This document shows positions 14,009 through 28,287 of a stretch of DNA of 50,825 nucleotides, piece after piece (position 1 is the stretch's first letter; each line of letters begins with the position of its first letter). The stretch is from Gemmatimonadota bacterium. GTDB lineage: Bacteria; Gemmatimonadota; Gemmatimonadetes; Gemmatimonadales; Gemmatimonadaceae. The position numbers were made by a program, and so were the translations under genes. The notes beneath the pieces are model-generated. The model was not told where the DNA came from. It made no database searches and saw only the letters and a program-made list of their open reading frames with translations. The DNA lies in assembly GCA_003171215.1 (NCBI GenBank), contig PMYN01000080.1:9112-59936 (forward strand). The letters run 5' to 3'.

Positions 14009-14022
14009 GTTGTCTCCTGTGA

Positions 14023-14106
14023 GCGGTACTTCGGGCGGTACTTCGGGCGGTACTTCGGGCGGTACTTCGGGCGGTACTTCGGGCGGTACTTCGGGCGGTA
14101 CTTCCT
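14023..14106. repeat. 12-base tandem repeat, seven units
   Basis: GCGGTACTTCGG is repeated six times exactly from 14023, with a seventh, imperfect unit ending near 14104. The array lies in the 131-base gap between the divergent BNR protein and amidohydrolase genes, beside both presumed promoters. The unit length is a multiple of three and close to one DNA turn, so copy-number change would shift spacing by whole turns. Confidence 0.95.
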
Positions 14107-14133
14107 TGAAGTTATCAACGCGGGGCGTATGCT
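14106..14133 (+). promoter_or_regulatory. Candidate promoter giving a leaderless amidohydrolase mRNA
   Basis: TTGAAG at 14106-14111 and TATGCT at 14128-14133 are 16 bases apart. The -10 ends only six bases before the ATG at 14140, so the transcript would begin at or next to the start codon. No Shine-Dalgarno sequence is visible. Confidence 0.5.
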
Positions 14134-20710: not shown

Positions 20711-20744
20711 CTGTCGCCTGCCTTCTGCCTTCTGCCATCTGTCA
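20711..20744. repeat. Low-complexity CTGCCTT repeat between the VOC and dnaE2 genes
   Basis: CTGTCGCCTGCC is followed by TTCTGCC, TTCTGCC and ATCTGTCAG. The pattern is close to the CCGTCTGCC words of the repeat family seen in and around dnaE2 and imuB. It touches the dnaE2 stop codon, which lies in its last bases. Confidence 0.45.
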
Positions 20745-23700
20745 GTAGAAATCGTGACTGCGCGCGTGCTCCGCCCCCGCGCCCGACCCGAGCGCGACGA
20801 ACTCCTCCGCCTTCAGGTTCACCACCGTCTGCTCGATCTGCAGCACGCCGCGCACGAGCAGCAGCGGCGTGCGCGAAATGAGCGGCGCCTGCTTCTCGAA
20901 TCGCTGCGGCGTGATGACGACGTTCAGCATTCCCGTTTCATCCTCCAGCGTGAGGAACACGAATCCCTTCGCCGTGCCCGGGCGCTGCCGACAGATCACG
21001 AGTCCCGCCGCCGCGATGCGCGCGCCGTCCTTCTGTTTCGTGGCCTCGTGCGCGGTGAGCACGCCGTTCGGCAGGAGGAGTGCGCGCAGGTGGCGCATGG
21101 GATGGCCGTTCAACGAAAGGCCGGTCATCCGGTAATCCGCTTCGGTCATTTCCGGAGCGGAGAGCGGCGGCAGTCCCGCCGGAATCTTCGTTTCCGGAAA
21201 AAGTGCGAGCGGACCCGCGTCGCCGCGCACGCACTCGAGCACGCGCCACAGCGCCACGCGCCGCCGCCGCGCCGGCGGTTCGTCCGCCACGAACGCGTCG
21301 AACGCACCGGACTCGGCCATGAAGCGCAGCGCGCGTCGATCCAGCTGAGAGCGGTGCACCACGTCGCGAATCGACGTGAATGGACCGTCACTCAGCGCGC
21401 GCTCGATCTTGCCGCGCGCGTTGGAGCCGAGCCCGCGAATCGAGCGGAGGCCGAGTCGCACGAGCGGCGGTGTTCGTGGCGCGCTTCGTGCCGCGCTCTG
21501 TGGCGTGCTCTGCGGCGCGTTGCATACCTTGGATCGCTCGCCGTCCGATGCCGCGTCACGATGCACGGCGATCACGCCATCGTGCGGCACGACCACCGTG
21601 CCGTCCGCGCACTCGAGGGTGTGATCCCACGCCGACCGCGTCACGTCCACCGGCAGCACGCGCACGCCGTGCCGCTTGGCGTCCTCCACGAGCGTGCCCG
21701 CGGAGTAGAATCCCATCGGCTGCGCGTTGAGCATCGCGGCGAGGAACTCGGGCGCGTAGTAATGCCGGAGGTACGCGCTCGCATACACGATCAGCGCGAA
21801 GCTCGCCGCGTGCGACTCGGGGAAGCCGTAATCGGCAAACCCGTTTATCTGGTTGAAGATCCTCGTCGCCACTTCGTTCGAGATTCCGTTCGCGAGCATG
21901 CCGTCGAGCATTCGCTGGCGGATGCCTTCCATCTTCTCGCGGCTGCGCTTGTGGCCCATCGCCTTGCGCAGGAGATCCGCCTCGCCCGGCGTGAAGTTGG
22001 CCGCGACGATCGCGACCTGCATCCCCTGTTCCTGGAAGAGCGGAACGCCGAGCGTGCGCTTGAGCACCGGCTCGAGCATCGGGTGCGGATAGGTGACGGG
22101 CTCCTCGCCATTCTTGCGGCGCAGGTATGGATGGACCATCTCGCCCTGGATCGGGCCCGGGCGGATGAGCGCGACTTCCACCACGAGGTCGTAAAAACAG
22201 CGCGGCTTGAGGCGGGGCAGGGTGTTCATCTGCGCGCGGCTCTCCACCTGGAACACGCCGACCGTATCCGCCCGGCAGAGGTCGTCGTACACGGCTTGAT
22301 CCTTGAAATCGAGCTGGCCGAGGTCGATCGACACGCCGCGCGTGGCGCGGATGTATTTCAGACAATCCTGCACGGCGGTGAGCATGCCGAGCCCGAGCAG
22401 GTCGATCTTCACGAGCCCGACGGGATCGAGATCGTCCTTCTCCCATTGAATGACGGTGCGCTCGTCCATGGAGGCGGGCTCGATCGGGACGACCGTGGAG
22501 AGCGGCTCCTTGGTGAGCACGAATCCGCCGACATGAATGCCGCGATGCCGCGGCGCCTCGTGCAATCCATGCACGATCTCGGCCAGCCTGATCACGCGCG
22601 GGTCTTTGGGGTCGAGCCCGGCACGCGTGAGGAGTGAGTCGGCTTGCTGTTCGGGGGCTGGGGCGGTCGGGTGTGCCATGCCTCCATTTCCGCGACCCTC
22701 TCGGACCGCTGCGCGGTCCTGCGGCCGGGTCTCGGAAATGGAGGCATGGCCCGCCCTCCCTTGTGCGGGCATCGTGGCGGTGGACGTGCTGCTCTCCTTT
22801 GCTTTCATCCACTCGGCGCGAGACTTGGCTCGCTCTTCGCGCATGCGATTCACGGCGTGCGTGCCTTTCATCATGTCCATCCCGAGCACGTCCGCGATTC
22901 GTCGCGCTTCCAGGTCTTTGGAGTATCCCGCCGGCCCGTTCGCATCCGCCCGCTCCGGCGCAAAGGGATCGGCTTCCGGCTTCCGGCTTCCGGCTTCCGG
23001 CTCTGCGCGCAGCGCAGCGGCCGTCGCCTTCGCCGAGAAACGATCGCTGAACATCGCCAGCGCGCCGGCTTGCTCGGGCGAAAAGCCGAGCACGCGCGCC
23101 GCGTCGCGCACGGCGCTTCGCCCACGCCAGGTGATGTGCTCGCAGACCATCGCGGCGTGTTCGCGGCCGTAGCGTTCGTACACGTACTGCAGGACGCGTT
23201 CGCGGTCGCGGTGCGCGAAATCGATGTCGATGTCGGGGGCTTCCTTGCGTTCTTCACTCAGGAATCGCTCGAACAGCAGCTCGAGCTTGATCGGATCCAC
23301 CGCGGTGATGCCCAGCACGTAGCACACAGCGCTGTTGGCGGCGGAGCCGCGGCCCTGGCAGAGGACGCCGTCACGGCGCGCGAAGCGGACGATGTCCCAG
23401 ACGATCAGGAAATAGCCGGCGAGCCCGAGTTTGCCGATCAGGGTGAGTTCGTGCGTGAGTTGCGCGTCGTGTTTCGCGGTGCGCCGCCATCCCCAGCGTT
23501 CGCGCGCGCCCTGTTCCACCAACTGCGCGAGATAGTCGTCCTCGCTCACGCCGTCGGGGAGCGGAAAGCTCGGCAGCGTGGGCTTGAGATCGGCGAGACG
23601 AAAGGTGCAGCGCTCGGCCACCGCGAGCGTCGCGCGCAAACCCTCCTCGCGGCCCTGCCAGCGCCGCGCCATCTGCGCCGCGCCCTTGAGATACCACTCG

Positions 23701-24503
23701 CCGTTGGGACGGAGCCGCGTGCCCATTTCATCGAGGGTCGCGCCGTGTTTCAGCGCGCAGAGCACGTCGTGCGCGAGCCGCCCCGCGGGATCGGCGTAGC
23801 GCACGTCGTTCGCGACAACCCACGGAATGCCGAGCGCGTGCGCGATCTCGATCAGCGCCGTCGTCGTCGCGCGCTCCTCGGGCAGCGAGTGGTCCCAGCA
23901 CTCGATGGCGACCCGGCGGTCGAACATGTCGATGAGCGCCGCCGTCGCCTCGCACGCCGCATCGTGCTCGCCGCGGGCCGCGAGCTGCGCCACCCACCCG
24001 CGCGGCGAGCCGGTGAGCGCGAAGAGGCCGTTGGTGTGGCGGGCGAGAGTGTCCAACGACACGCGCGGTACTCCACGCGGATGATCGAGCCGCGCTCTGG
24101 TTATGAGCGTGCTCAGATTGCCGTAACCCTCGCGATTTTCTGCGAGTAAAACTATTTGAGAGTGATTGGACGGCAGACGGCGGACGGCGGACGGCGGCTG
24201 GGAGGGCAGACGGCGGATGGCAGCATGCAACTGCCGGCTGTCGTCCGCCGTCCCAGCCGCCGTCCGCCGTCCGCCGTCTGTCGTCTGCTCAATCGTCAGT
24301 TCAACCCCAATGATCCCCTTCAGTCCCGCCGTGGCCGCAGCGGTCGAGAATCGCACCGCGCCGCCGAGGTCGTCGCGGTCGGTGAGGGCCAGCGCCGGCA
24401 TTCCCAATCGCACGGCGCGCGCGACCAACTGCTCGGGGTGCGCGGCGCCGTCGAGCAGGGAGAAGGTGGAGTGGCAGTGCAGTTCAGCGTACATTCGCCC
24501 CAT
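20742..24503 (-). CDS. dnaE2: Error-prone DNA polymerase III alpha subunit DnaE2, enlarged by repeat insertions
   Basis: 1253 residues from the ATG at 24503 (24494 is an alternative; both give MYAELHCHSTFSLLDGA, the PHP-domain start). Typical DnaE2 is roughly 1000-1100 residues. The catalytic PDIDIDF is intact near 421-427, and the HVGGFVLT-type and HARSHDFY-type ends of DnaE2 are present. DnaE2 is the translesion polymerase of the SOS mutasome, working with ImuA and ImuB. The extra length is repeat-derived: residues about 73-113 (element at 24169-24287), about 500-511 (seven-base tandem repeat) and about 565-620 (palindrome at 22675-22750 and flanks). All keep the frame. The start codon shares the CATG at 24501-24504 with the start of the opposite-strand dipeptidase gene. 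Confidence 0.95.
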   Translation of the reverse strand: MGRMYAELHCHSTFSLLDGAAHPEQLVARAVRLGMPALALTDRDDLGGAVRFSTAAATAGLKGIIGVELTIEQTTDGGRRTAAGTADDSRQLHAAIRRLPSQPPSAVRRLPSNHSQIVLLAENREGYGNLSTLITRARLDHPRGVPRVSLDTLARHTNGLFALTGSPRGWVAQLAARGEHDAACEATAALIDMFDRRVAIECWDHSLPEERATTTALIEIAHALGIPWVVANDVRYADPAGRLAHDVLCALKHGATLDEMGTRLRPNGEWYLKGAAQMARRWQGREEGLRATLAVAERCTFRLADLKPTLPSFPLPDGVSEDDYLAQLVEQGARERWGWRRTAKHDAQLTHELTLIGKLGLAGYFLIVWDIVRFARRDGVLCQGRGSAANSAVCYVLGITAVDPIKLELLFERFLSEERKEAPDIDIDFAHRDRERVLQYVYERYGREHAAMVCEHITWRGRSAVRDAARVLGFSPEQAGALAMFSDRFSAKATAAALRAEPEAGSRKPEADPFAPERADANGPAGYSKDLEARRIADVLGMDMMKGTHAVNRMREERAKSRAEWMKAKESSTSTATMPAQGRAGHASISETRPQDRAAVREGRGNGGMAHPTAPAPEQQADSLLTRAGLDPKDPRVIRLAEIVHGLHEAPRHRGIHVGGFVLTKEPLSTVVPIEPASMDERTVIQWEKDDLDPVGLVKIDLLGLGMLTAVQDCLKYIRATRGVSIDLGQLDFKDQAVYDDLCRADTVGVFQVESRAQMNTLPRLKPRCFYDLVVEVALIRPGPIQGEMVHPYLRRKNGEEPVTYPHPMLEPVLKRTLGVPLFQEQGMQVAIVAANFTPGEADLLRKAMGHKRSREKMEGIRQRMLDGMLANGISNEVATRIFNQINGFADYGFPESHAASFALIVYASAYLRHYYAPEFLAAMLNAQPMGFYSAGTLVEDAKRHGVRVLPVDVTRSAWDHTLECADGTVVVPHDGVIAVHRDAASDGERSKVCNAPQSTPQSAARSAPRTPPLVRLGLRSIRGLGSNARGKIERALSDGPFTSIRDVVHRSQLDRRALRFMAESGAFDAFVADEPPARRRRVALWRVLECVRGDAGPLALFPETKIPAGLPPLSAPEMTEADYRMTGLSLNGHPMRHLRALLLPNGVLTAHEATKQKDGARIAAAGLVICRQRPGTAKGFVFLTLEDETGMLNVVITPQRFEKQAPLISRTPLLLVRGVLQIEQTVVNLKAEEFVALGSGAGAEHARSHDFY
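22675..22750. repeat. Nested palindrome inside dnaE2
   Basis: The arms 22675-22698 and 22727-22750 match at 23 of 24 bases (GCCATGCCTCCATTTCCG core). Inside is a second stem, GGACCGC/GCGGTCC. It lies in frame in dnaE2 and encodes part of a segment of about 50 residues that I do not expect in DnaE2, between the catalytic palm/fingers region and the HVGGFVLT motif. Confidence 0.9.
22971..23003. repeat. Seven-base tandem repeat inside dnaE2
   Basis: GGCTTCC occurs four times in a row, with a partial fifth. Read on the coding strand it gives the peptide EPEAGSRKPEA. Slippage by one unit would shift the frame of dnaE2; three units would not. Confidence 0.9.
24169..24287. repeat. CCGTCTG-family element, copy A, inside dnaE2
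   Basis: A 119-base imperfect inverted repeat. The left arm is built of GACGGCAGACGGCGGACGG-like words, ends near CTGGGA and continues; the right arm is the complement built of CCGTC words. The first 33 bases of its left arm are nearly identical to those of copy B at 25755. In dnaE2 it encodes about residues 73-113, between IIGVELTIEQ and IVLLAENREGYGNL, which normally nearly adjoin. Confidence 0.92.
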
Positions 24504-25755
24504 GCCCAAACCAACCGTCATCCGCCGTCCGCCGTCCAAACTGCCGTCTGCCGTCTGCCTTCCGCCGTCCGCACCGCCGGTTTCCCGACGCGATGCGCTC
24601 GCGACGATCGCTGCGGGCGCGTTGGCTATCGCCATTGCGCCGGCGGTGCTGCGAAACAGGTATCGAATCTTCGCAGCGTCGCCCGTCGAGTACTCCGCGC
24701 GCGCCGTGCGCCTCGTCGAGCGCACCGTCGTCATCGACATGCTCAACCAGTTCCGCTTTGCCGATTACGCCGAACATCCGCCCAAGAGCGAACTCTGGCT
24801 GCGCGCGCCGCGGTCGTTCACGACGGCGGACTTCCAGCAGTACCGCACCTCGGGCATTCGCGTCTTCGCGCTCGGGCAGAGCGCGGCCAGCTATGAATCG
24901 GGCGTCCGCTTCTACGCCGACTGGAACGGCTTCATCGCCGGCTATACCGACTGGTTCACGCGCATCGAGAGCGCGGGCGACTTCGAGCGGCTGAAGAAAT
25001 CGAACAAGGTGGGGATCATGCTCACCTTCCAGAACTCCGATCATTTCCGCACGCCGGACGACGTCAACACCTTCCACACGCTCGGCCAGCGTCTCTCGCA
25101 GCTCACCTACAACGCCACGAACAAGCTCGGCTCGGGTTTTCTCGCCGATACCGACGTGGGGCTCACCCCCTTCGGCGCCGAGATCGTCGCGCGCATGAAC
25201 GCGGTGGGGATGGCCGTCGATCTCTCGCACTGCGGCGACCGCACCACGCTCGACGGAATCGCCGCGACGAAAAAGCCCGCGCTCTTCTCGCACGCGGCCT
25301 GCCGCGCGCTCGTGCCGGGGCACATGCGCTGCAAGACGGACGAGATGATCACCAGCATGGCGAAGACCGGCGGCGTGATGGGGATCCCGATGATCCGCTT
25401 CATGATCAAGATCGACGAGCCCGTCACGCAGGAGCACGTGCTCGATCATTTCGATCACGTCGCGAAGCTCGTGGGCGTCGAGCACGTGGGTGTCGGCGGC
25501 GATCTCGATCTCGTCGGCAACCCGAACCCGGTGAATGCCCCCGACGGCGGTGGCAGGCCCACCAACCAGCACAACTTCGACCGCTACCGCCTCCACGAGG
25601 ACACCGACGGCCGCATCACGATTCGCGGGCTCGATCATCCGAAGAGGATCTATGATCTGACCGAGGGGTTGATCCGAAGGAAATACAGTGATGCGGATAT
25701 CCAATTGATTCTGGGGGGCAATTGGATTCGTGCGCTTAAGGAGATCTGGATTTAG
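24502..25755 (+). CDS. Tat-signal M19-family (membrane dipeptidase-like) protein with altered metal site
   Basis: 417 residues from the ATG at 24502. Residues about 6-26 come from repeat copy D; the twin-arginine signal follows (SRRDALATIAAGALAIAIAPA, about 29-49). The body fits peptidase M19: VGIMLTFQNSDHF, AVGMAVDLSHCGDRTT, FSHAACRAL and EHVGVGGDLD keep the His, His and Asp positions of the later zinc ligands. The first HxD ligand pair of classic enzymes is replaced (VVIDMLNQF), and the bridging Glu position reads Gln in TFQNS. So the usual two-zinc site is probably not formed. The gene lies against the direction of its neighbours, between dnaE2 and imuB. Its start is in the same CATG as the dnaE2 start, with no clear ribosome binding site. 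Confidence 0.85.
   Translation: MPKPTVIRRPPSKLPSAVCLPPSAPPVSRRDALATIAAGALAIAIAPAVLRNRYRIFAASPVEYSARAVRLVERTVVIDMLNQFRFADYAEHPPKSELWLRAPRSFTTADFQQYRTSGIRVFALGQSAASYESGVRFYADWNGFIAGYTDWFTRIESAGDFERLKKSNKVGIMLTFQNSDHFRTPDDVNTFHTLGQRLSQLTYNATNKLGSGFLADTDVGLTPFGAEIVARMNAVGMAVDLSHCGDRTTLDGIAATKKPALFSHAACRALVPGHMRCKTDEMITSMAKTGGVMGIPMIRFMIKIDEPVTQEHVLDHFDHVAKLVGVEHVGVGGDLDLVGNPNPVNAPDGGGRPTNQHNFDRYRLHEDTDGRITIRGLDHPKRIYDLTEGLIRRKYSDADIQLILGGNWIRALKEIWI
24515..24573. repeat. CCGTCTG-family element, copy D, at the dipeptidase N-terminus
   Basis: About 59 bases of CCGTC/CCGTCTG words without an opposing arm. It shares GTCCAAACTG with copy C in imuB. It is coding sequence for residues about 5-26 of the dipeptidase (Pro/Ser/Arg-rich) and is also the immediate upstream region of dnaE2 on the other strand. 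Confidence 0.9.
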
Positions 25756-25867
25756 ACGGCAGACGGCGGACGGCGGACGGCGGCTGGGACGACAGACGGC
25801 GGACGACAGCAACTGCCGTCTGCCCTCCGTTGTCCCAGCTGTCGTCCGCCGTCCGCCGTCTGCCGTC
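25755..25867. repeat. CCGTCTG-family element, copy B, between dipeptidase and imuB
   Basis: A 113-base imperfect inverted repeat that begins on the last base of the dipeptidase stop codon and ends seven bases before the imuB stop. Its arms share a 25-base exact match at the outer ends and a CTGGGAC core word. It could act as a bidirectional terminator for the two convergent genes. Confidence 0.92.
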
Positions 25868-25873
25868 CGCCCC

Positions 25874-27511
25874 TCAGTCATACCACCCCTGAAGGCGCCA
25901 GCCGCCTGTATCGCGGTACAAAAGAAAATCGCGCGCCAGTTCGTCACTCTCACATCTCCAGTATTCCCGCGCATAAGAATCCTTCCACCAATCCCCCGAC
26001 AGCCGCTCCGGCCCGCGTGCGCACGTGATCACCACGCGCCGTCCGCGCCACCAGAGAATGCGCGGCATGCCGCGCGGCGCGTCGACATCGACTTGTTCGG
26101 GCGTGTCGAGCAAACGTGAACTGACCGCCGTCTGCTGTCCGTTGTCCAAACTGTCGTCCGCCGTCTGTCGTCTGCCGTCCGCCAAGCTGCCGTCCGCCGT
26201 CTGCCGTCTGTCGTCCGTCACTTCCACCCACGCGCCACACTTTTCCGGCCGGTATTCATCGCACGCGATTGGCCTCACCACGCTCCCCGCGCCGAGCGTT
26301 GCACGTAACCGTTCAAAGGCGGCGTCAGCCGCGGCGGGATCTCTCCACGCAGCGGCGAGCAGGTCGCCCTGCTCGGCGCCGAGCGGTGCGGTGGCGGTGA
26401 CGGTCACGGTGACGGCGCTCACGGGCGCGGTGAGCGTCCACTGGTCGAGCATCGCGCGGCAGCGTTCGAAGAGCGGCGCGACGCGCGCGACCGGTTTTGC
26501 CGGCCGCACTTCGCGCGTGACGGTGTGCACCAATTCTCCCCTCACTCGTTGCCCGTCGCTGCTGACGGTGCCGGCGGGAATCGCGCTGCGCGCGTCGTCG
26601 AGCGTGAGCGTGATGGCGATGGCGGCCGCGGCGCGTCCGTCGTGCACGAGCGCGTCCACGAGCTGGCCGAGCGCGGCGCGGACGATGAAGAGCACCGGTT
26701 CCATCGTTGCGGCGCTCATCGCGAGCTCGGTGCTCACGAAGCGCGCGGCGTCGGTGCGCGCGAGCACGGGGCGGCGCGGGTCGTCGCCGTTGGCGAGTCG
26801 CCAGCTCTCGAGTCCTTCGGCGCCCCAGCGGCGCTCGACCTCGCCGGGGTCGAGTGCGGCGAGTGCGCCGGCGGTGCGCAGGCCGAGTGAGACGAGCGAT
26901 TCGCGGAACTCTTCGTCCATGGAAACGAGCGAGAGCGGTGCGCACGCGAGGTATGCGGCGCAGCCGCCGGGCGGCACGATGCGCGGCTGATTGTTTGATG
27001 AGGAGTCGCGATTGCCGGACCAGGTTGCCGTGCGCGCGGCGACGCACGAGTCGGCGACGCCGACGCGCGCATTCGGATGCCACGCGTTCGCGAGTGCGAG
27101 CAGCGTGCGCGCGAGCAAAGGCTCGCCGCCCATGGTTTCGAATCCGCCGGCGCCGATCCACCAGGTGCCGGGCGTGTCGTGCATCGGGCTCACCTGCGGG
27201 CTCGCGGAGAGGAACGCGGCGGAGGCGCGCGCGAGCTCGCGGGCGATCACCGTGTCATTCCACGCGAGCACTTCGAGCGCGGCGCATCGCGACTTGGCTT
27301 CGGGCACCGACATCCCCGTGCGGACGTGCATCTTCGCCGCGGCCGAGGTCACCGCGCGGAGCACCGGCCGTTTCCCGTGTACCAGCGCGATCGGCAGCGT
27401 GTCCCAGTGGGGCCCCAAGTGGGGCGATGCGCTGCGTCCTGACCACACCGCGCCTATCGGGAACCTCGGAATTCGTACGCACGCGACGCGCCACTTCGAT
27501 GTCACGGTCAA
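25874..27511 (-). CDS. imuB: ImuB, catalytically inactive Y-family polymerase-like mutasome subunit
   Basis: 545 residues. The N-terminal fold is Y-family (RVACVRIPRFPIGAVW, VTSAAAKMHVRTGMSVPEAKSRCAALEVL, LGLRTAGALAALDP), but the catalytic DxD at the first strand is absent (CVRIPRF), as is normal for ImuB. The C-terminal part (PARRAEQG-like, then RGMPRILWWRGRRVVITCARGPERLSGDWW, ARDFLLYRDTGGWRLQGWYD) is the ImuB tail. ImuB bridges the sliding clamp, ImuA and DnaE2 in SOS mutagenesis. Residues about 431-463 are encoded by repeat copy C and are Arg/Asp/Thr/Ser-rich. The gene starts within the imuA frame (257-base overlap). An opposite-strand gene separates it from dnaE2, which usually follows directly. 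Confidence 0.93.
   Translation of the reverse strand: MTVTSKWRVACVRIPRFPIGAVWSGRSASPHLGPHWDTLPIALVHGKRPVLRAVTSAAAKMHVRTGMSVPEAKSRCAALEVLAWNDTVIARELARASAAFLSASPQVSPMHDTPGTWWIGAGGFETMGGEPLLARTLLALANAWHPNARVGVADSCVAARTATWSGNRDSSSNNQPRIVPPGGCAAYLACAPLSLVSMDEEFRESLVSLGLRTAGALAALDPGEVERRWGAEGLESWRLANGDDPRRPVLARTDAARFVSTELAMSAATMEPVLFIVRAALGQLVDALVHDGRAAAAIAITLTLDDARSAIPAGTVSSDGQRVRGELVHTVTREVRPAKPVARVAPLFERCRAMLDQWTLTAPVSAVTVTVTATAPLGAEQGDLLAAAWRDPAAADAAFERLRATLGAGSVVRPIACDEYRPEKCGAWVEVTDDRRQTADGSLADGRRQTADDSLDNGQQTAVSSRLLDTPEQVDVDAPRGMPRILWWRGRRVVITCARGPERLSGDWWKDSYAREYWRCESDELARDFLLYRDTGGWRLQGWYD
26125..26219. repeat. CCGTCTG-family element, copy C, inside imuB
   Basis: About 95 bases of CCGTCTG/CCGTCCG words, all in one orientation, with no opposing arm. 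It shares GTCCAAACTG with copy D. It lies in frame and adds about 32 residues to ImuB between CGAWVEVTDD and LLDTPEQVDVD. Confidence 0.92.
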
Positions 27512-28184
27512 CTTCTCCCAGGGAAAAAACTTTCACGGTTTGGTATGGAGCGCCCTTCTCGATCACGACGGTGACGCTGCGCGCGCTGGTGGCCGGCGCG
27601 TCGTCTTCTTTTTTCGGGAACGTTCTTCGTCGTGTGACGGCGGCTGGCTTCGTCTCTTTTGCGACGCGCAATCGCAACGAGCCGGCGAGCTCGGAAGTTT
27701 TGGAGTCGTCGCCGAGCACGAGGAGCGCGGCGTCGGATTCGCGTGCGAGTCGGGTGAGGCGGACGGCGACGGCGCGCGTGAGCATCGGCGCGCCGTCGAG
27801 GACGACGAGCGAGAACGCGCCGCTGCGCAGGAGGACGTCGGCGCACCATGCGCCGCGCGTGGGGTTGTCGGGGCGCACGACCCAGAGCCCGTCCTGGTTT
27901 CCGTTCGCGCTGACGTGCGCCCAGTCGCGCGGTGCGAGCGTGCGGGTGGCGTCGATGTACGCGACCGCGCCGCCGTCCTTCACGGTGCGTTCCGCGATCC
28001 GGCGGACGAGCGTGGTTTTACCGGAGCCCGGGAGTCCGACGAGCTCGGTGAGGCGGCCGCGGGGGAGGCCGTGGTTGGGGAGCGCGGCATCGAGTGCGGC
28101 AACGCCGGTAGTGAGGCCGGGGGTGCCCGGGCTCGTGCCGGCGATGATTTCGGAGAGGTGCTGGCGGAGCAGTGCCAGTGACAT
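27255..28184 (-). CDS. imuA: ImuA, RecA-like mutasome ATPase
   Basis: 309 residues. RecA-like core: TGVAALDAALPNHGLPRGRLTELVGLPGSGKTT, with the Walker A GLPGSGKT near 50-57, AYIDATRTLAP, and LVVLDGAPML as Walker B. ImuA cooperates with ImuB and DnaE2 and modulates RecA in SOS mutagenesis. From about residue 225 the frame runs on for 85 residues over the start of imuB. That tail is Arg-rich and looks like out-of-frame DNA, so the native stop may have been lost or the overlap may be real. The leader consists of a GATGCGGG repeat, and the promoter carries a LexA-like direct repeat (28268-28282). Confidence 0.88.
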   Translation of the reverse strand: MSLALLRQHLSEIIAGTSPGTPGLTTGVAALDAALPNHGLPRGRLTELVGLPGSGKTTLVRRIAERTVKDGGAVAYIDATRTLAPRDWAHVSANGNQDGLWVVRPDNPTRGAWCADVLLRSGAFSLVVLDGAPMLTRAVAVRLTRLARESDAALLVLGDDSKTSELAGSLRLRVAKETKPAAVTRRRTFPKKEDDAPATSARSVTVVIEKGAPYQTVKVFSLGEVDRDIEVARRVRTNSEVPDRRGVVRTQRIAPLGAPLGHAADRAGTRETAGAPRGDLGRGEDARPHGDVGARSQVAMRRARSARVE

Positions 28185-28189
28185 AGGGC

Positions 28190-28251
28190 GATGCGGGATG
28201 CGGGATTTCGACCCGATGCGGAGTGCGGAAGAGGAATGCGGGGCGAAATCC
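28190..28251. repeat. GATGCGGG-family repeat filling the imuA leader
   Basis: Bases 28190-28219 match 49369-49398 at 29 of 30 positions. GGATTTCG (28203-28210) can pair with CGAAATCC (28244-28251), placing a hairpin at the very 5' end of the predicted imuA mRNA. Confidence 0.9.
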
Positions 28252-28259
28252 GATGTCTT

Positions 28260-28287
28260 TATATACCGAACAAATACCGAAGCGCAA
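28260..28287 (-). promoter_or_regulatory. imuA promoter with LexA-like direct repeat
   Basis: On the minus strand, TTGCGC (28287-28282) and TATATA (28265-28260) are 16 bases apart. The spacer holds GAAC-N7-GAAG (28268-28282, plus-strand reading), one base from the GAAC-N7-GAAC (GTTC-N7-GTTC) box of alphaproteobacterial LexA. A repressor here would block RNA polymerase. Transcription would start near 28253, about 69 bases before the ATG. Confidence 0.6.

Follow-up and report, generated by a model that had tools for sequence, protein, structure and literature searches.

Why four copies of one short repeat should lie within about 2 kb of a bacterial mutasome locus, partly inside its genes, and whether they arrived there together, is the question raised by a stretch of Gemmatimonadota DNA of 50,825 nt, called the window below (G000:C7:9112-59936). 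The genome under study, G000, is 4.14 Mb in 162 contigs, and the locus comprises imuA-imuB, a peptidase M19 gene and dnaE2. The dnaE2 ORF (20742..24503, minus strand) is intact and encodes PHP, DNA_pol3_alpha, finger, HHH_6 and OB domains. The neighboring genes encode a membrane dipeptidase of peptidase family M19 with a Tat-like signal (SRRDAL; 24502..25755, plus strand), ImuB of the IMS family (25874..27511, minus strand) and an ImuA-like RecA-fold protein (27255..28184, minus strand), the 3' part of the last gene overlapping the 5' part of the listed imuB ORF. Against G002, the nearest sampled relative (about 85% identical), dN/dS was 0.065 for dnaE2 and 0.13 for imuB, and it ranged from 0.06 to 0.18 across the comparisons made, indicating purifying selection. 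Repeats were surveyed in 698 kb of G000, 555 kb of G002 and 160 kb of G096 as a control; most of the genomes compared are MAG assemblies, and the census used gene calls from a simple purpose-made gene caller. A search of the window at Rfam gathering scores matched no family, and a search of the literature on repeats in dnaE2/imuB or in Gemmatimonadota returned nothing relevant. Two further repeats were observed in the window, a GATGCGG-like heptamer array directly upstream of the imuA gene (28184-28260, partly common to G002) and a 12-nt tandem repeat, GGTACTTCGGGC, in several near-perfect copies (14011-14112).

All four copies, A to D, that the initial annotation reported are present where it placed them, and each is an array of the 7-nt word CCGTCYG. 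Its distinction of two hairpins from two single-arm forms was also borne out. Copy A (24160..24294, unstranded) is a heptamer hairpin inserted in frame into dnaE2, in a PHP-domain loop of variable length (site 1), with arms at 24160-24223 and 24231-24294 that are 83% complementary around a 7-nt loop. Copy B (25755..25867, unstranded) has arms at 25755-25809 and 25813-25867, 87% complementary with a 3-nt loop, and fills the interval from the stop codon of the M19 gene, whose TAG ends at 25755, to that of the convergent imuB, which ends at 25874. Copy C (26125..26219, minus strand) is a single-arm array in frame near the imuB C-terminus. Copy D (24515..24573, plus strand) is a single-arm array that adds 20 codons in frame ahead of the SRRDAL (Tat) motif. 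Three copies had been described as coding and in frame, which holds for A, C and D once one gene placement is corrected, D lying just outside dnaE2, where the M19 gene encodes its Tat signal. Copy A was BLASTed against plasmids and gave no match.

Comparison with relatives separated the copies in time. The A and D sites lack the CCGTCYG repeat in relatives: at the A site the arrays consist of GGTCCTC in G002 and of GCGTGCA in G012, and at the D site G002 has no array. The position of copy B is taken in G002 by a (GCTTCCG)n array, and the counterpart of copy C is a shorter member of its family. The G000 sequence exceeds that of G002 by 90 nt at A, by 60 at D and by 36 at C, each divisible by 3, the last being a difference between species. 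Because the G002 sites hold other words, no array or a shorter copy, the copies differ in age and do not represent one invasion; judged from these alignments, copy C was in place before the split from G002, and A and D came after it. The simultaneous invasion of three genes proposed earlier is therefore not supported, and B is intergenic. Copies A and B match each other best (score 78; next 57), and GTCCAAACTG, already recognized as common to C and D, was found nowhere else among the 183 loci compared; short-range copying has therefore occurred, and A and B are local copies of each other.

The repeat was correctly suspected to be a dispersed family. The G000 genome has 164 occurrences of CCGTCYGCCGTCYG; each of 17 congeners has between 0 and 24, and G029, which belongs to a different genus, has 146. 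Within the phylum, three consecutive units were found in 16 genomes out of 295, spread over 6 of 118 genera. In the 698 kb sample, TRF detected 111 arrays of period 7, as against 10 with period 6 and 3 with period 8, and the period-7 arrays merged into 81 elements. Their words in G000 are ACGGCRG, AAGCCGG, AAYGACC, GATGCGG/ATCCCGC, AAGATGG, ACTCCCC/ACTCGCC and AAGACCG; the leading words in G002 are AAGACCG and AAGCCGG. The arms of the hairpins are heptamer arrays of 30-60 nt. With 41 elements of the CCGTCYG word in the sample, 0.12 would be expected per 2.05 kb, and simple arithmetic, uncorrected for the prior look at this locus, gives P ~ 8e-6 for at least four in a preset window. An explanation of the copies as ordinary low-complexity protein segments or as an assembly artefact has in its favor the MAG origin of the sequence and the low-complexity look of the encoded peptides; its chance of being correct is negligible, and it was rejected, since the coding segments vary among congeners, other assemblies have the same loci with other words, and the same words have hundreds of further occurrences across the genome.

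Most copies elsewhere in the genome lie between genes and against stop codons, which speaks against the mutasome-specific element implied before. Although coding sequence makes up 92% of the sample, 70 of the 81 elements are intergenic or at a gene edge. A stop codon lies within -3 to +6 nt of 23 of the 52 noncoding elements with two neighbors, where random placement in the same gap predicts 6.8; this is significant in G000, and the smaller G002 set gave 7 of 14 with 5.1 expected, which is not significant. Copy B, which fills a gap enclosed by a convergent pair of stop codons, is a typical placement. Several arrays of G096 sit upstream of a start codon and are not coding. Outside the window, a different word stands at the same position in G002 for the elements at C18:36740, 45019 and 56783. 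A gap-by-gap test of positional conservation against G002 was not significant with 23 usable gaps, and word exchange is therefore given as individual cases. At G000:C18:36740-36840 and G002:C47:5578-5712 the stop-to-stop gaps are filled by hairpins unrelated in sequence, and the former is one of some elements that contain a stem and T run resembling an intrinsic terminator.

Two more insertions, overlooked in the initial annotation, lie in the same dnaE2 at site 2. One is a pure (GCTTCCG)4.7 heptamer array, in frame (22968..23000, minus strand), 100% identical over its 4.7 units, with a GGTCTTC array as its counterpart in G002. The other, palindrome 2 (22669..22756, unstranded), is an in-frame hairpin unrelated to the heptamer family. 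When the best loci from 118 genomes of the family were analysed with TRF and mapped onto one DnaE2 protein (G006), heptamer arrays were found at residues ~71-77, 468-481 and 839-860 (G006 numbering). At least 13 species, drawn from several genera, carry them, in every case with the reading frame kept open. The words, which include AGATGGT, AGATGGC, GATGGCG, GAGACGG, GGATGGC and CCGTCTG, differ among species and tend to match between sites within one genome. Arrays are also present in the imuB of G096, G177 and G226. In alignment with Thermus Pol III alpha the three DnaE2 sites are gapped or unaligned, and they are thus natural linkers of variable length.

A unit of 7 nt is not divisible by 3, and pure dnaE2 arrays exist, at 22968-23000 and in G096 (AGACGGG x4.4); the gain or loss of one unit might thus shift the frame of dnaE2 or imuB and switch mutagenesis, as in a contingency locus. 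Such phase variation is very improbable, as the frame was open in every array-bearing dnaE2 examined, and the arms are mostly degenerate, which lowers slippage. Apart from these, the dnaE2 matches in G235:C54 and G322:C148 each contain one in-frame TAG, which may mark a disrupted allele or an assembly error.

Palindrome 2 has a conserved core of 30 nt, CTCTCGGACCGC..GCGGTCCTGCGGCCG, and arms that are specific to each copy yet complementary. The core pattern gave 29 copies in 15 of the 148 genomes searched; 26 are in dnaE2, imuB or imuA loci and the other three in G013, and in G000 the copy at 22669-22756 is the single match. Besides the window, the family was noted at loci L243, L245, L250, L263, L264 and L269, and its copies often form inverted pairs ~200 bp apart. 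The pair at L264 (G013:C137:3248 and 3448) lies outside the mutasome, upstream of another gene for an M19-type dipeptidase, the family to which the window's gene between imuB and dnaE2 belongs. In sister species of genus g13, the same DnaE2 sites hold palindrome 2 in some and heptamer hairpins in others.

These pairs, the copying of A and B as whole hairpins that share a left boundary, and the patchy occurrence of the heptamer units in the phylum would also be expected of a palindromic element that is mobilized in trans by a dedicated enzyme (REPIN/RAYT- or MITE-like) and inserts preferentially near stop codons and existing hairpins. We regard this as improbable, because Y1_Tnp (PF01797, the RAYT domain and the sole transposase class searched) had no match in G000 or 17 congeners, and a target duplication was not found; at the repeat-free D site of G002 none is clear, the flanks being too diverged.

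The impression that the mutasome locus is unusual was confirmed with a sequence-independent cut-off for strong hairpins (at least 20 of 24 paired; the stricter 19/22 cut-off missed copy A). The coding DNA of G000 contained 3 such hairpins in 545 kb, 2 of them in dnaE2, and that of G002 none in 444 kb, while dnaE2 of ~40 genomes contained 27 in 141 kb, mostly in genera g1, g13 and g35. The densities are 19 per 100 kb for dnaE2 and 0.3 for the coding DNA of the two genomes, a ~60-fold difference, drawn from species that are not independent of one another. In dnaE1 of twelve genomes 2 hairpins were found in 35.6 kb, at about the same place in G000 (GCTTCCG; L280, C17, 249-319) and G002 (GACCGAA; L281, C207, 4071-4132); the replicative polymerase is thus not immune, and the preference for dnaE2 is strong and not exclusive. 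The other ten genomes have no hairpin in dnaE1 and 25 in all in dnaE2. At site 1, the hairpins of four g13 species are of equal length and different words, with folding energies of -55 to -60 kcal/mol, and 9 of their 32 pairs are altered on both sides, a count that fits selection or arm-to-arm copying alike.

The main rival explanation is selection for hairpins in the mutasome mRNA. Stems in the dnaE2 and imuB mRNA might slow ribosomes or shorten the message and so cap the level of the mutagenic polymerase; a palindrome of any kind would then suffice, whichever its orientation, making the families interchangeable. The exchange of heptamer hairpins and palindrome 2 in sister species, the pairing maintained despite changes of word, the contrast between dnaE2 and dnaE1 in the ten genomes and the near restriction of palindrome 2 to mutasome loci all agree with such selection. 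Against it, G006, G015 and G177 have no hairpin at the DnaE2 sites, G002 there and copies C and D have single arms only, a heptamer hairpin is also present in dnaE1 of G000 and G002, and every insert lies at a generic variable loop. Selection of this kind is unlikely overall. In its wider form, Gemmatimonadaceae mutasome genes would require or attract hairpins, with any available palindrome family placed in frame at the three DnaE2 sites and later replaced by another, acting as a sequence-independent brake on the mutagenic polymerase, a proposal that we hold as doubtful. In this connection, E. coli REP elements near stop codons can influence translation (PMC12306157).

Among known systems, the closest are the heptameric STRR/SSR repeats of cyanobacteria, of Xanthomonas and Nostoc and of Beggiatoaceae, which are degenerate 7-nt units, dispersed, mainly intergenic and often adjacent to stop codons. 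The Xanthomonas GGGAATC and Nostoc GGGGAYT heptamers are mostly intergenic, near or overlapping stop codons (PMC4692102), and for the TAACTGA repeats of Beggiatoaceae the mechanism is not evident (PMC4679880). Copies A to D are part of a genome-wide palindromic set of degenerate 7-nt tandem words of this same kind: period 7 is over-represented against 6 and 8, and the elements are mainly intergenic and dispersed. Like STRR/SSR, they are patchy over phyla and have no known mover, and inverted pairs occur in Xanthomonas. The AAYGACC word is probably the TTGGTCA word of cyanobacterial STRRs. The present set differs in its many words per genome and many long hairpins, in the swapping of words at fixed positions in sister species and in the in-frame copies in polymerase genes.

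The Rickettsia palindromic elements (RPE), to which the repeats had been likened, are palindromes of ~100-150 bp inserted in frame in genes, a description that also fits copy A. The likeness extends to the outcome, palindromes in frame at tolerated places of protein genes, and to nothing beyond it; the heptamer-array unit, the mostly intergenic location and the turnover of words set the present repeats apart by description, no sequence relation being claimed. A heptamer structure is not known in RPE. With REP, BIME and REPIN elements and their RAYT (PMC2817692, PMC3116915, PMC3733652) the repeats share palindromes near gene ends, inverted pairs and a patchy high copy number, but they differ in heptamer-periodic arms, intragenic copies and the absence of Y1_Tnp from the genome and genus. 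MITEs (PMC10969869) are likewise short, non-coding, dispersed inverted repeats, whereas here neither a target duplication nor a parent transposon was found.

Taken together, we consider it probable that the copies are STRR-type heptamer palindromes, grown by slippage and fold-back copying and filtered by selection into permissive loops. Under this model, arrays would lengthen or shorten by 7 nt through replication slippage. Hairpins would arise, and their arms stay matched, as one arm is copied into the other by fold-back (template switching). A whole hairpin may occasionally be copied to a new, often nearby place, as from A to B, by a route that would need no RAYT/IS200-type transposase. Selection would then retain copies between genes, typically hard against stop codons, and within genes only where whole codons are added at a tolerant loop. 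DnaE2 has three such places and recurs as a host in several genera of the family, loop tolerance being the presumed cause of the preference. Loop tolerance accounts for the positions inside DnaE2, but not by itself for the preference for dnaE2 or the confinement of palindrome 2; both may be explained in two ways, by local spread after a single arrival or by selection for mRNA hairpins.

Heptamer repeats have been noted for decades in scattered bacteria without a mover or function. The same positions filled with different words in sister species are natural replicates, in which repeat growth, replacement and selection can be directly measured. Unrelated in-frame palindromes are concentrated in genes that govern the induced mutation rate, which poses a testable question on how mutagenesis is controlled.
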